A stretch of 64,000 nucleotides of DNA from Lachnospiraceae bacterium (GTDB taxonomy: Bacteria > Bacillota > Clostridia > Lachnospirales > Lachnospiraceae), in the NCBI GenBank assembly GCA_029219245.1, contig JAQXTA010000044.1, forward strand, positions 28,081 to 92,080, written 5' to 3'. The position numbers and the translations under genes are program-made. This document shows, piece by piece, positions 2,439 through 63,900 of the stretch. Each line of letters opens with the position of its first letter. Position 1 is the stretch's first letter. The notes beneath the pieces are model-generated. The model did not search any database. It worked only from the letters and a program-made list of their open reading frames with translations, and was not told the origin of the DNA.

Positions 2439-4112
2439 TTGAAAAAAAATGAACAGGGAACGGTTTCCAAGCTGAAGATTATTCCGTTAGGAGGCTTGGG
2501 ACAGATTGGACTTAACATTACTGCCTTTGAGTACGAGGACAGTATTATTGTTGTGGATTGCGGATTGTCATTTCCGGAGGATGAAATGCTGGGAATTGAC
2601 CTGGTTATTCCGGATGTTACTTATCTGACGGACAATATTGAAAAAGTAAAAGGCTTTATGATTACACACGGACATGAAGACCATATCGGTGCACTGCCCT
2701 ATGTGTTGAAGGAGTTGAACATACCGATTTATGCGACGAAGCTGACGATGGGTATTATTGAAAACAAGTTAAAAGAACATGAGTTGATGAACTGTACAAA
2801 ACGTAAAGTAGTAAAATTTGGACAGTCCATAAATCTGGGAAAATTCCGGATTGAGTTTATCAAGACAAATCACAGTATTGCGGATGCTGCTGCACTTGCC
2901 ATTTATTCTCCGGCAGGTATTGTAGTGCATACCGGTGATTTTAAAGTTGATTATACACCGGTATTCGGGGATGCCATTGACTTGCAGCGTTTTGCGGAAA
3001 TCGGTAAAAAAGGGGTACTGGCCTTAATGTGCGACAGTACCAATGCGGAGCGCCAGGGTTTTACACCGTCCGAGAAAACAGTTGGAAAGACCTTTGATAC
3101 GCTCTTTTCAGAACATAAGAATACACGAATTATTATTGCAACCTTTGCTTCTAATGTGGACAGGGTACAGCAGATTATCAATTCAGCGGATAAGTTCGGC
3201 AGAAAAGTAGTCGTAGAAGGCCGTAGTATGGTCAGCATCATGGAAACGGCTTCTACTCTGGGATATCTGAATATTCCGGAAAATACGTTAATTGATGTAG
3301 AACAGTTAAAAAATTATCCGAATGAGAAAACGGTTATTATTACCACCGGAAGTCAGGGGGAAAGCATGGCGGCCCTCAGTCGTATGGCAAGTGACATGCA
3401 CAAAAAGATTTCAATTGTTCCGGGCGATACGGTTATTTTCTCATCGAATCCGATACCGGGAAATGAAAAAGCGGTTACCAATGTCATTAATGAGCTTTTG
3501 ATGAAGGGTGCAGATGTGATTTTTCAGGATGTGCATGTTTCCGGACATGCCTGTCAGGAGGAGATTAAACTGCTTTATACGCTGGTGCATCCGAAATATG
3601 CGATTCCGGTGCATGGGGAATATAAGCACCTGAAGGCACAGGCCAAGATAGCCCATGAACTTGGTATTGAAAAAGAAAACATTTTCATTCTTCATTCGGG
3701 AGATGTCCTGGAAATCAGTGAAGAACAGGCAGAAGTGACCGGGAAAGTGCCGGTTGGAGCAATTCTGGTAGACGGTCTGGGTGTTGGTGACGTCGGAAAC
3801 GTCGTATTACGTGACAGACAGCATCTGGCACAGGATGGTATTCTGATTGTTGTACTGGCCCTTGATTCTTATAATAGTCAGTTAGTTTCCGGACCGGATA
3901 TTGTATCCAGAGGCTTCGTCTATGTGAGGGAATCCGATGAACTGCTGGAGGAAGCAAGACTTTTGGTAAACAGTGCTATTATGGGCTGCCTGGATAAAGG
4001 ACAGACCGATTGGGGAAAGTTAAAGTCCACGATTAAAGATGTATTAAGTGATTATGTATGGAAGAAAACCAAGAGGCGTCCGATGATACTTCCGATTATT
4101 ATGGAAGTTTAA
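2439..4112 (+). CDS. rnj: Ribonuclease J
   Basis: Metallo-beta-lactamase/beta-CASP ribonuclease J, with 5'-3' exo- and endonuclease activity in mRNA decay and rRNA maturation. The metal motif HGHEDH is at about residues 75-80, the beta-CASP domain follows, HVSGHA is near residue 365, and the C-terminal domain ends in KKTKRRPMILP. The start is set at TTG 2439 because GGAGG lies 8 bases upstream (2426-2430) and the resulting 557 residues fit the family. The longer in-frame ATG at 2325 has no ribosome binding site and would add 38 unconserved residues. The 250 bases before 2439 hold no other gene and contain a GC-rich hairpin near 2345-2360. Confidence 0.93.
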   Translation: MKKNEQGTVSKLKIIPLGGLGQIGLNITAFEYEDSIIVVDCGLSFPEDEMLGIDLVIPDVTYLTDNIEKVKGFMITHGHEDHIGALPYVLKELNIPIYATKLTMGIIENKLKEHELMNCTKRKVVKFGQSINLGKFRIEFIKTNHSIADAAALAIYSPAGIVVHTGDFKVDYTPVFGDAIDLQRFAEIGKKGVLALMCDSTNAERQGFTPSEKTVGKTFDTLFSEHKNTRIIIATFASNVDRVQQIINSADKFGRKVVVEGRSMVSIMETASTLGYLNIPENTLIDVEQLKNYPNEKTVIITTGSQGESMAALSRMASDMHKKISIVPGDTVIFSSNPIPGNEKAVTNVINELLMKGADVIFQDVHVSGHACQEEIKLLYTLVHPKYAIPVHGEYKHLKAQAKIAHELGIEKENIFILHSGDVLEISEEQAEVTGKVPVGAILVDGLGVGDVGNVVLRDRQHLAQDGILIVVLALDSYNSQLVSGPDIVSRGFVYVRESDELLEEARLLVNSAIMGCLDKGQTDWGKLKSTIKDVLSDYVWKKTKRRPMILPIIMEV

Positions 4113-60019: not shown

Positions 60020-60190
60020 TTATGCCTGAGCAATAGAACCGGTTGGGCAAGCTCCTGCGCAAGAACCGCAATCGATACATTTGTCAGCATCGATTTCAAA
60101 TTTACCGTCTCCCATGCTGATTGCGCCTACCGGACACTGTGCCTCACAAGCACCACATGCTACACAAGCATCACTAATTGCAAATGCCAT
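60020..60190 (-). CDS. 2[4Fe-4S] ferredoxin
   Basis: 56-residue clostridial-type ferredoxin with two CxxCxxCxxxCP motifs (CVACGACEAQCP at residues 9-20 and CIDCGSCAGACP at 38-49). Carries low-potential electrons, for example to radical SAM or hydrogenase enzymes. AAGGAGG lies 8 bases before the start. It follows pflA by 101 bases on the same strand, so it could supply electrons to the PFL-activating enzyme. The gap contains a small inverted repeat TTGATA/TATCAA. Confidence 0.95.
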   Translation of the reverse strand: MAFAISDACVACGACEAQCPVGAISMGDGKFEIDADKCIDCGSCAGACPTGSIAQA

Positions 60191-60291: not shown

Positions 60292-61059
60292 CTATTCGGC
60301 CTCTTTTTTTATTTCCTCTCTGCGCTTACGGATGCCGTCAAGAATCACTTCTTTTTTCTTAACAAGTTCGGATTTATCCATTGGCGGAACACCCTTTAAT
60401 CTATACTCGATACCAAGTTTTTCGTATTTGCTTTCTCCCATGGTATGGTAGGGAAGAGCATCCAATGCTTTCAAATTATGGAACTGGCCAATAAAGTATC
60501 CGAGCTGATATAAGTACTTATCATCATCGGTAATGCCGGGTACGATAACGTGCCTAATCCACATATCCACATTTTTTTCATCCAGATACTTTGCGAAGGC
60601 AAGAATACCGTCATTTGGCTGTGAAGTCAGTTCCTTGTGCTTCTCCGGATCAATGTGTTTAATATCCAACATGACAAGGTCTGTCAGAGTCATTAATTTG
60701 TCCAGTTTGGCAAGCCATTCCGGATTGGCATTGGGCTTATAAGCAATGCCCGAGGAATCAATGCAGGTATGGATATTTTTTTTCTTTGCAAGTGTAAATA
60801 AATCGATTAAAAAATCAACCTGCATCAATGGCTCCCCACCGGTTACGGTAATACCTCCATCTTTATAAAAGCTGATGTTGCGCTCATATTGTTCAATGAT
60901 ATAGGATGGTTCCATTAAGGTTCCGGCATTCATTTCCCAGGTATCGGGATTATGACAGTAAGCACAGCGCATCGGACAGCCCTGTACAAAGACAACAAAT
61001 CTTACACCCGGCCCGTCAACGGTACCGAAACTTTCTAATGAATGAATTCTTCCTTGCAT
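60292..61059 (-). CDS. pflA: Pyruvate formate-lyase activating enzyme
   Basis: 255-residue radical SAM enzyme that puts the glycyl radical on PFL. The cluster motif CPMRCAYC is at residues 29-36, and the glycine-rich SAM loop is TVTGGEPLMQ. Length is normal (246 in E. coli). Its substrate here should be the stand-alone radical-domain protein at 61208. It is separated from the PFL genes by a terminator, so it has its own promoter in 61060-61130 (TATACT on the - strand near 61102-61107). Confidence 0.95.
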   Translation of the reverse strand: MQGRIHSLESFGTVDGPGVRFVVFVQGCPMRCAYCHNPDTWEMNAGTLMEPSYIIEQYERNISFYKDGGITVTGGEPLMQVDFLIDLFTLAKKKNIHTCIDSSGIAYKPNANPEWLAKLDKLMTLTDLVMLDIKHIDPEKHKELTSQPNDGILAFAKYLDEKNVDMWIRHVIVPGITDDDKYLYQLGYFIGQFHNLKALDALPYHTMGESKYEKLGIEYRLKGVPPMDKSELVKKKEVILDGIRKRREEIKKEAE

Positions 61060-61134: not shown

Positions 61135-61170
61135 AAAAAAACAAGGCTCTGAAAGATTTCAAAGCCTTGT
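61135..61170 (-). terminator. Terminator of the pfl operon
   Basis: On the - strand ACAAGGCT / AGCCTTGT stem followed by TTTTTT. Confidence 0.85.
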
Positions 61171-61207: not shown

Positions 61208-61453
61208 TTAGATGCTCTCGTGGAATGTACGGGAGATAACATCTGCCTGCTGTTCTGGTGTTAACTTAATGAAGTTAACAGCGTAACCGGAAACACGAAT
61301 TGTTAACTGAGGATAGTTCTCAGGATGCTTCTGAGCATCTAACAGAGTGTCTCTGTTTAATACGTTAACATTAAGGTGATGACCACCTTTTGTTGCATAG
61401 CCATCTAATAAAGATACCAGGTTATTTACCTGAGCTGTATTTGCTGCTGCCAT
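61208..61453 (-). CDS. grcA: Stand-alone glycyl-radical domain of pyruvate formate-lyase (GrcA-like)
   Basis: 81 residues equal to the last part of a normal [35 protein letters not shown] and a final RTFHESI. The radical glycine is Gly56 in RVSGYAV. E. coli GrcA (YfiD) is a spare copy of this domain that repairs oxygen-broken PFL; here no copy is fused to the catalytic chain, so this protein is probably an obligate subunit. AAGGAGG precedes the ATG. It is the last of three co-oriented genes. Confidence 0.92.
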
Positions 61454-61474
61454 TTTTAAGTCCTCCTTATGATA

Positions 61475-61678
61475 TTAGTGGAAATCGTCCAAACCCTGTT
61501 CCAGAGTAGGAACACTGCAGGCTAATGGGGTTCGGGAACAATCCGTACACCCCATAGTCTGTACTTCTTTTGAATTATCCAATTTCTCATCAACATTAAC
61601 ATTCACATGTCCGACACCTTGTGTCATACCGGAATCTAACATTTTTACGAAATCGTCAATCATTTGATTGTTGTCCAT
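61475..61678 (-). CDS. 67-residue PFL-operon protein with half a radical domain and a Cys cluster
   Basis: Residues 4-36 (DFVKMLDSGMTQGVGHVNVNV) resemble the start of the radical-domain protein ([21 protein letters not shown]), but the RVSGYAV segment is missing. Instead the second half has CTDCSRTPLAC (cysteines 44, 47 and 54), which could bind a metal or Fe-S cluster. AGAAAGGAAG precedes ATG 61678. It lies between catalytic PFL and radical domain, 56 bases after the former and 21 bases before the latter. It may be an assembly, protection or redox-sensing subunit. I know no characterised relative. Confidence 0.8.
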   Translation of the reverse strand: MDNNQMIDDFVKMLDSGMTQGVGHVNVNVDEKLDNSKEVQTMGCTDCSRTPLACSVPTLEQGLDDFH

Positions 61679-61734
61679 ATACTTCGCTTCCTTTCTTCAC
61701 AATTCTATGAAAAAAATCTGTTATATATGGAGTT

Positions 61735-63774
61735 TTATTTGTTTAAGTCAATTTCGATATCGCCTGCGAATACCTGATCTTCTTTACCAAGTGCGCCCGG
61801 GATAATGGTAAATGTGTTAGAAATACCATCCTGTGCATCCTTGAATGGAAGTTTGGATACAGAAGATAAGGAAGCTACTGCACCATGAGTATCACGTCCA
61901 TGCATTGGGTTAGCACCCGGAGCAAACGGCTGTCCTTTCTTACGTCCATCAGGTGTATTACCGGTAGCCTTACCATATGTTACGTTAGAAGTAATGGTAA
62001 GGATAGAGGTTGTAGGAATACCATTTCTGTAGGTATGATGTCTTCTGATAGCGGTCATAAATTTATGAACGATTTCCTGTGCGATAGAGTCAACACGGTC
62101 ATCATCATTACCATATTTCGGGAAGTCACCGGTTGTCTTGAAGTCAACGATAATTCCGTCTTCATCTCTGATAGGTTCAACCTTAGCATATTTGATTGCA
62201 GATAAGGAGTCAGCTACGATAGACAGACCTGCAACACCGGTTGCAAAGTAACGTTTAACATCTCTGTCATGAAGAGCCATCTCTGCTCTTTCGTAGCAGT
62301 ATTTATCATGCATATAGTGGATGATGTTCAGAGTATTAACATATACATCTGCCTGCCATTCCATCATATCAATGAATTTATCCATTACATCATCATAGTC
62401 AAGAACATCTCCTGTAACAGGACGATATTTCGGACCAACCTGTTTCTTGGTAACTTCGTCAACACCGCCGTTTAATGCGTAAAGCAGACATTTAGCAACG
62501 TTTGCACGAGCACCGAAGAACTGCATTTCTTTACCGATTACCATGGAGGATACACAACAAGCAATACCGTAGTCATCACCATGTGTTACTCTCATAAGGT
62601 CATCGTTCTCATACTGGATAGAAGAGGTCTGGATAGACATCTTAGCACAGTATTTCTTCCAGTTTTCAGGAAGTCTTGTGGACCAGAGAACGGTTAAGTT
62701 CGGTTCCGGAGAAGGTCCTAAGTTTGTTAATGTGTGTAAGTAACGGAAGCTCATCTTGCTAACAAGCGGACGACCGTCAACACCAACACCACCAAGAGAT
62801 TCTGTTACCCATACAGGGTCGCCTGCGAAAATCTGGTTGTATTCAGGAGTACGAGCAAATTTAACGCAACGTAATTTCATGATGAAGTGATCAACGAATT
62901 CCTGAATTTCTTCTTCTGTAAAGGTTCCGTTAGCTAAATCTCTTTCAGCGTAGCAGTCAAGGAAGGTAGAAGTACGTCCAAGGGACATAGCTGCACCGTT
63001 CTGCTCTTTTACTGCACAAAGATATCCAAAGTAAGTAGCCTGAATAGCTTCCTGTACGTTTGTAGCAGGTTTGGAAATATCACAGCCGTAAGAAGCTGCC
63101 ATTTCTTTCATCATTTTCAGAGCAACCATCTGCTCGGAGAGTTCTTCACGAAGACGGATAACATCATCTGTCATAACACGTCCTGTAGAATCTTTCTGGG
63201 CCTGTTTGTCTTCGATTAAGTAATCGATACCGTACAGAGCAACACGTCTGTAGTCACCAATGATACGTCCACGTCCGTATGCATCCGGAAGACCTGTGAT
63301 GATGTGTGCGGAACGGCAAGCTCTCATTTCCTGATTGTAAGCATCGAAACAACCTGCGTTGTGTGTTTTTCTGTGTGTGGAGAAGAATTCACTGATTTCA
63401 GGATCAACTTCGTATCCGTTATCGGAGCAAGCTTTCTCTGCCATTCTGATACCGCCGTATGGCTGTAAAGAACGTTTGAAAGGTTTGTCTGTCTGGAAAC
63501 CAACGATTTTTTCTTTGCTCTTGTCTAAGTATCCCGGGCCATGAGATGTAATTGTAGAGATAACTTTGGTATCCATATCAAGTACACCGCCAGCTTCACG
63601 TTCCTGTTTCTGTAAGTCAAGAACCTGTGCCCATAAATCTTTTGTGTTCTGTGTAGGACCTGCTAAAAAGGATTCATCACCATCATAAGGATGATAGTTT
63701 TTCTGGATGAAGTCACGTACGTTTACTTCATTTTCCCATTTGCCGCCTACAAAATCTTTCCATTCTGGTCTCAT
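61735..63774 (-). CDS. pflB: Pyruvate formate-lyase catalytic subunit, without glycyl-radical domain
   Basis: 679 residues. Converts pyruvate and CoA to acetyl-CoA and formate. The catalytic cysteine pair is Cys406-Cys407 in ACCVSSM (E. coli Cys418-419). The chain ends shortly after [26 protein letters not shown], precisely where a normal 750-760 residue PFL continues into the radical domain; that domain is encoded at 61208. GGAGG is 10 bases before ATG 63774. The stop is followed by a proper spacer and new ribosome binding site, not by an out-of-frame continuation, so this is a real split. Confidence 0.95.
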
Positions 63775-63870: not shown

Positions 63871-63900
63871 ATTATATGTTAAAAGAATAACATACGTCAA
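63871..63900 (-). promoter_or_regulatory. Promoter of the pfl operon
   Basis: On the - strand TTGACG (63900-63895), spacing 18, perfect TATAAT (63876-63871). The rest up to 64000 is AT-rich with no gene visible. Confidence 0.7.

Follow-up and report, generated by a model that had tools for sequence, protein, structure and literature searches.

Pyruvate formate-lyase (PFL) is a central and oxygen-fragile enzyme of fermenting anaerobes. Among the closest described counterparts of the system analyzed here are those of Escherichia coli, whose PFL (PflB, TIGR01255; PDB 1h16) is a single polypeptide and whose GrcA/YfiD protein (PDB 6owr) is a free radical domain, activatable in trans, which repairs oxygen-cleaved PFL in a cell that retains the fused enzyme. 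According to PMC8683613, truncated E. coli PFL(1-695) combined with YfiD displays wild-type activity once activated, and removal of residues 696-733 renders YfiD binding undetectable and lowers activation 32-fold. Formate production by E. coli PflB-G734A with GrcA, and not without it, is reported in PMC12338860. A description of a naturally split PFL was not encountered among the literature matches listed, which were mostly open access.

The DNA analyzed here, referred to as the window, is a stretch of 64,000 nucleotides from a Lachnospiraceae bacterium. Its PFL locus resembles the E. coli enzyme in its catalytic chain, its Cys-Cys pair, and the family of its activase, and it resembles GrcA/YfiD in possessing a free radical domain with an identical RVSGYAV loop. 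It differs from the former, which possesses neither the C-terminal extension found here at the domain border nor a cysteine module, and from the latter in that the catalytic chain of the window has no radical domain.

Catalytic chain and radical domain are encoded by separate genes

A first-pass annotation of the window had recorded a PFL divided between a catalytic chain and a free radical protein, and the three open reading frames involved were indeed recovered, in an order which recurs in closely related loci; these and all other features described below lie on the minus strand. The catalytic chain (61735..63774; 679 amino acids [aa]) scores 1111.1 bits against TIGR01255 (cut-off, 994.2), the match stopping at profile position 665 of 744, and TIGR01255 together with radical domain profiles locates the glycyl radical domain not on this chain but on an 81-aa protein (61208..61453). 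In phmmer alignments, residues 4-669 of the catalytic chain correspond to residues 10-681 of E. coli PFL (1h16) and residues 9-80 of the 81-aa protein to residues 682-758, such that the two proteins jointly span residues 10-758 and adjoin between residues 681 and 682, which agrees with the earlier placement of the break at the domain border. The numbering given previously for the catalytic pair Cys406-Cys407 (codons at 62554..62559; invariant in a 23-row alignment) and for Gly56 in RVSGYAV (codon at 61286..61288), the counterpart of E. coli PFL Gly734, was likewise exact. Among 55 surveyed split chains, the adjacent catalytic cysteines were found in the context ACCVS in all and ACCVSSM in 54. 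The chain of the window ends in an 11-residue C-terminal extension, of which residues 670-679 (61738..61767) form the end, and a loose pattern describing this extension fits 54 of the 55 split chains; of the fused junctions read, 39/40 exhibited a short direct link, the remaining one (L207) retaining a remnant of the extension.

The 81-aa protein belongs to the GrcA3 family (NF038360, 159.6 bits against a cut-off of 158; PF01228, E value of 9.8e-24), a name that was absent from the literature matches listed. Its match to TIGR04365 begins at profile position 65 of 126, an N-terminal half of approximately 60 residues being absent, and it has no counterpart of YfiD residues 1-60, which matter for binding according to PMC8683613. 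Between this gene and the 67-aa gene located 5' of it (61475..61678; hereafter mid) there is a single TAA, both genes lying in one frame (61208-61678); the arrangement is not conserved in relatives, and read-through from the 67-aa into the 81-aa gene was rejected as an explanation.

Further downstream, pflA (60292..61059) encodes a 255-aa PFL-activating radical-SAM enzyme (TIGR02493, 293.6 bits; cut-off, 231.75), and the activase gene is adjoined by that of a 56-aa 2[4Fe-4S] ferredoxin (60020..60190; PF00037, E value of 5.5e-16), which is a plausible electron donor. A hairpin resembling an intrinsic terminator, with 13 pairs and a T-run, is situated between the radical gene and pflA (61141..61170). 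The promoter-like site 5' of the catalytic chain gene (63871..63900; 11/12 consensus matches) is weak evidence, such sites being rarer in the region than in its shuffles.

Neither decay nor error accounts for the short PFL. Against eight relatives, the dN/dS of the PFL gene ranged from 0.017 to 0.046 (six of eight comparisons calculable, the rest being saturated), which rules out its reading as a pseudogene, and that of the radical gene from 0.015 to 0.044 (all eight calculable). The order PFL/67 aa/81 aa, whose conservation the first-pass annotation had proposed to examine, was present in 58 of 80 close loci (ten apparent mid matches proved to be lone radical genes and were excluded to reach this figure), with the PFL lost at a contig end in 2 of the 58; the other 22 loci represented lone radical genes. 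A frameshift or assembly error is ruled out because the arrangement recurs with gaps and frames that vary from locus to locus.

The top-scoring solved chains for the catalytic chain were 38la_A and 38lb_A, both labeled "Formate acetyltransferase" in a 2026 copy of the PDB. The former ends at LGKED and the latter continues past the same border into a tail where two or more cysteines are visible (GECDMCEM). The radical protein of the window matched neither entry, and no radical subunit or mid chain was found for them by sequence. These two chains look like split-type catalytic chains and may represent natural split PFLs.

The split PFL is widespread, and the free radical gene tracks it

That no fused PFL accompanies the locus, as previously claimed, was borne out by a search of the whole genome (2.79 Mb, 73 contigs, approximately 90% complete) for a second full-length PFL, the finding which the first-pass annotation had named as contrary to its reading: a single PFL-like match was returned, although at this completeness a fused PFL may have escaped assembly. 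A genome-wide search with the Gly_radical domain model recovered the two pieces in the window, two class III ribonucleotide reductases, and a radical gene on another contig. The ribonucleotide reductases (NrdD) are located at the end of contig C22 and on contig C61, one of them being interrupted by a contig end.

This second radical gene stands alone (G000:C15:30138-30380; L188:6121-6384). Its product scores 159.2 bits against NF038360 and thus, like the 81-aa protein of the window, lies just above the cut-off. Over 72 shared codons the two copies encode the same protein with 33 nucleotides different, and over all 81 codons their dN/dS is 0.03. The gene may provide a separate supply of the radical protein. 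It is flanked by genes which, by eye, look like pyrI and pnp; a pnp-like gene was nearby in 5 of 27 lone-radical-gene loci, this locus included, the neighbors elsewhere being mostly different. In one further locus (L026), lone radical subunit genes were observed at positions 3412 and 6544, approximately 3 kb apart, with no PFL in the 9.7 kb covered.

Across a survey of 150 genomes of the family (counts taken from hand-transcribed lists), a split PFL was identified in 60, a fused PFL in 61, and both in 3 (G085, G119, and G132), split calls in four genomes (G022, G060, G128, and G129) being based on contig fragments with small genes and fused calls in two (G034 and G142) on fragments. The other 32 genomes comprised 20 without a TIGR01255 match and 12 with unclassed distant relatives or fragments only. 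A full-length PFL thus accompanied a GrcA-type part in 3/60 split genomes, and a fused PFL was absent from 46 of the 49 split genomes that were at least 90% complete. The free radical gene was present in every one of the 60 split genomes, 9 of which had two matches, and in none of the 58 fused-only genomes, two matches to PFL fragments being disregarded; these small-frame matches, in G034 and G142, are ends of broken fused PFL genes, whose PFL matches start at profile positions 587 and 559 and run to the profile end. A typical free copy would have appeared among the matches listed, since their floor was approximately 60 bits and the weakest free copy scored 113.5. Because the free gene tracks the split PFL exactly in this sample, its product is most likely an obligate subunit of the split enzyme and not just a repair part. 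The earlier assertion that the radical must come in trans in every case is therefore upheld to that degree, by the lack of a fused PFL and by the 60/60 against 0/58 distribution. Although the name GrcA3 suggests a cofactor for repair, in the genomes surveyed GrcA3 accompanies PFLs that have no radical domain.

Beyond the family, 21 of 391 genomes in a survey of the class exceeded the GrcA3 cut-off. Twenty of these (all but the window's own genome), together with the two scoring best below the cut-off, were searched with TIGR01255, and all 22 contained a split-type PFL or a fragment thereof, two of them (G403 and G506) also harboring a fused PFL. Split-type PFLs were thereby located in eight families other than that of the window (f4, f14, f18, f21, f22, f53, f56, and f70). 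From these sequence surveys, we regard the split arrangement as real and general, and as widespread in the family.

In a tree of 96 catalytic cores, every split chain fell into one clade (SH-aLRT, 100), which also included five fused chains in two places. Grouping the 56 split chains without these five was rejected (p-AU, 0.025; the group was named after the tree had been seen). One split followed by two re-fusions is the simplest reading of the tree, which by itself does not separate gain from loss. One of the five, L207 (G096), is an apparently re-fused PFL with CGCEEVTC, a cysteine-bearing remnant between core and radical domain. The others (L198, L200, L203, and L209) are fused PFLs nested inside the split clade, likely representing a second re-fusion. 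Blautia proteins were among the 120 matches of one member of this nested group (P0244-P0363), and no junction cysteine was present in the 119 whose junction was readable: 81 were parsed by pattern, without a linker cysteine, and of the 39 outside the pattern, which were read by eye, 38 displayed no cysteine between LG and the LDGY-like motif, the junction of the remaining one (P0272) not being visible.

A radical-domain-like protein with a cysteine module

The mid protein combines an N-terminal half that resembles the radical domain with a cysteine module. Its residues 3-31 (61586..61672) are similar to the first part of that domain (VKMLDSGMTQGVGHVNVNV, aligned with a 19-letter stretch), as indicated by hhalign (probability, 95.6; E value, 1.3e-8) and by a Smith-Waterman score of 61, the maximum in 2000 shuffles being 45; we accordingly classify mid, by sequence, as partly paralogous to the radical domain. 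Two or three cysteines stand where the loop with the radical glycine would be expected, and in the window they occupy residues 44-59 (Cys44/Cys47/Cys54; 61502..61549; CTDCSRTPLACSVPTL). Conservation in 91 mids amounted to 86% for Cys44, 98% for Cys47, and 97% each for Ala53, Cys54, and Pro57. The open reading frame is judged to be coding because its dN/dS against eight relatives was 0.023 to 0.122 in the four calculable comparisons, the rest being saturated, and because 1701 related proteins were found. No functional name was present in the best 120 of these 1701, and no PDB chain was matched by sequence at an E value of up to 10. A match to a PHROG RNA ligase (E value, 0.0036) was judged to be due to chance. 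AlphaFold2 models of the PFL-mid and PFL-mid-radical read-through chains reached a mean pLDDT of only 54.7 and 48.1, respectively, a low confidence at which they are uninformative on docking.

Mid was found in 38 split genomes and in 0/58 fused-only genomes; a 39th genome with mid (G006) is 67% complete and had no PFL match. Its confinement to the family was considered and is contradicted by mid-like genes in f4, f14, and f22, identified by pattern reading of the loci. Since these genes were located in that manner, the phylum survey with the window's mid as query, which returned 2/398 genomes including the window's own, was too insensitive. One mid-like gene (L235; G300) was observed 3' of the radical gene rather than 5', and the mid homologues of L145 and L153 stop directly after the first CxxC pair, without the ACxIP part.

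Among 55 surveyed split loci of the family, 32 possessed a mid gene and 23 did not, and in 21 of the latter at least two cysteines were present in the PFL chain's own tail. Counting the window, 33 loci were of the mid type, 21 of the tail type, and 2 of neither, and in 0/33 loci with an adjacent mid gene did the PFL carry two tail cysteines. Each of the 32 surveyed mids contained two or three cysteines; 29 of them and 10 of the 23 tail-type chains conform to a strict pattern, C-x(3-8)-x-C-x-[IV]-P-[TN], and the motif is, at the sequence level, a loose one in which number and spacing vary. From the class survey, 20 loci were read (two were fused, L251 was unreadable, and 17 split loci were kept), with 14 of the 17 from the eight other families; 7 had a mid gene, 9 a tail, none both, and 1 neither, mid-like genes being sought via ACx[IVT]P within 1500 bases downstream, such that unusual ones could escape. 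The total of 73 split systems thus consists of 40 with a mid gene, 30 with a tail, 0 with both, and 3 with neither locally, an exclusive pattern whose counts are inflated by shared ancestry: gain and loss on the tree were patchy, and with only three independent contrasts on branches of good support a test could not reach significance. The three loci without a local module are L168, L250, and L183, and the genome of the last (G002) has a mid gene elsewhere. In 23 tail-type loci the gap 3' of the PFL was shorter than 230 bases; only that of L168 was large enough to accommodate a mid gene, and reading it in three frames revealed none.

Tail-type systems have no equivalent of the first half of mid, which therefore is not essential to the role of the module; this suggests that the cysteines, and not the anchoring half, are the shared functional part. 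Small cysteine-bearing partner subunits of the BssB/BssC and HpdC type are also features of benzylsuccinate synthase and 4-hydroxyphenylacetate decarboxylase; mid is likewise small and cysteine bearing, and it differs from these in its radical-domain-like first half.

Proposed mechanism and alternative explanations

We consider it likely that the PFL of this organism is encoded by two genes, whose products are predicted to assemble in the cell, the radical being delivered in trans in every case. The 81-aa subunit would dock onto the catalytic chain, PflA would then generate the radical at its Gly56, and the radical would then move from Gly56 to Cys407, as in E. coli. Cleavage by oxygen would destroy the small subunit only, a fresh copy replacing the damaged one, and the stand-alone second gene would act as a reserve supply. 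As E. coli requires residues 696-733 for YfiD binding, different docking contacts must have arisen in a split PFL; they may be provided by the C-terminal extension or the cysteine module. Mid is envisaged to use its radical-domain-like half as an anchor on the catalytic chain, at the vacant site, the module of tail-type systems being attached directly, and the cysteines would close or mark this site, by disulfide or metal, until displaced by the radical subunit. Such guarding or marking of the empty site by the module, whether in mid or in the PFL tail, up to the docking of the radical subunit is put forward tentatively, as a role that is quite possible without being probable. A more specific version, in which a decoy radical domain with a cysteine clasp in the position of the glycine loop, be it mid or an equivalent clasp borne on the PFL tail, seals the active site by pairing with the catalytic cysteines or a metal, leaving the resting chain oxygen-proof until the radical subunit takes over upon the return of anoxia, appears somewhat unlikely.

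The split and the function of the module may each be read differently. It is very improbable that the 81-aa protein merely serves for repair in the manner of GrcA/YfiD and that the short PFL is a relic, damaged or resembling a cleaved chain, next to another, main PFL: the score of the 81-aa protein in an autonomous glycyl radical cofactor family and the second stand-alone copy would fit such a scenario, but the genome contains no other PFL, a fused enzyme is absent from all but three of the 49 more complete split genomes, fused-only genomes are devoid of the free radical gene, and the dN/dS of the PFL gene, where calculable, remains within 0.017 to 0.046. As regards the module, binding of Zn or Fe-S, possibly across the dimer, by a small regulatory subunit akin to those of benzylsuccinate synthase and 4-hydroxyphenylacetate decarboxylase is rather unlikely; the cysteines of all 32 surveyed mids and of 21/23 tail-type chains, as well as the existence of small cysteine-rich subunits in other glycyl radical enzymes, are in keeping with it, and both the variable number and spacing of these cysteines and the want of a sequence match between mid and any PDB chain at an E value of up to 10 speak against it.

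Two further possibilities concern the resemblance of mid to the radical domain. We hold it to be doubtful that mid supplies in trans the recognition element equivalent to E. coli residues 696-733, recruiting the radical subunit without blocking the site. Its first half does match a segment which includes the start of this element, on which YfiD binding depends in E. coli according to PMC8683613; however, tail-type systems retain the cysteines and not that half, which places the shared function in the cysteines, and the free radical protein lacks the N-terminal half of YfiD, with which the element interacts according to a suggestion by the authors of that study. It is also improbable that mid resides in the second protomer of a PFL dimer whose first protomer holds the radical subunit, resulting in one radical per dimer. 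Mid and the radical protein have in common a segment with which both could occupy one and the same slot, and half-site reactivity of E. coli PFL in vitro is cited in PMC12338860, but the authors of that study contest that radical insertion is half-site in vivo, and every protomer of a tail-type PFL bears the module. Closure or marking of the vacant site by the module, displaced when the radical subunit docks, is retained as the tentative working model.

Implications

The first-pass annotation was correct as to the split, and its obligate radical subunit is supported; it had overlooked the nature of mid, the second radical gene, the wide spread of the arrangement, and two apparent re-fusions. 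The GrcA3 family had already been named, and the cysteine module is the least expected part of the system: mid constitutes an unstudied small protein family, and the module accompanies the split state. For annotators, a "truncated" formate acetyltransferase in this context is not a pseudogene, and the split PFL explains why many genomes of the family possess a "GrcA" yet no complete PFL. In the organisms concerned, the oxygen-fragile part of the enzyme would have to come from a likely exchangeable subunit, and a natural two-subunit PFL would make repair by spare part testable as the enzyme's normal mode.
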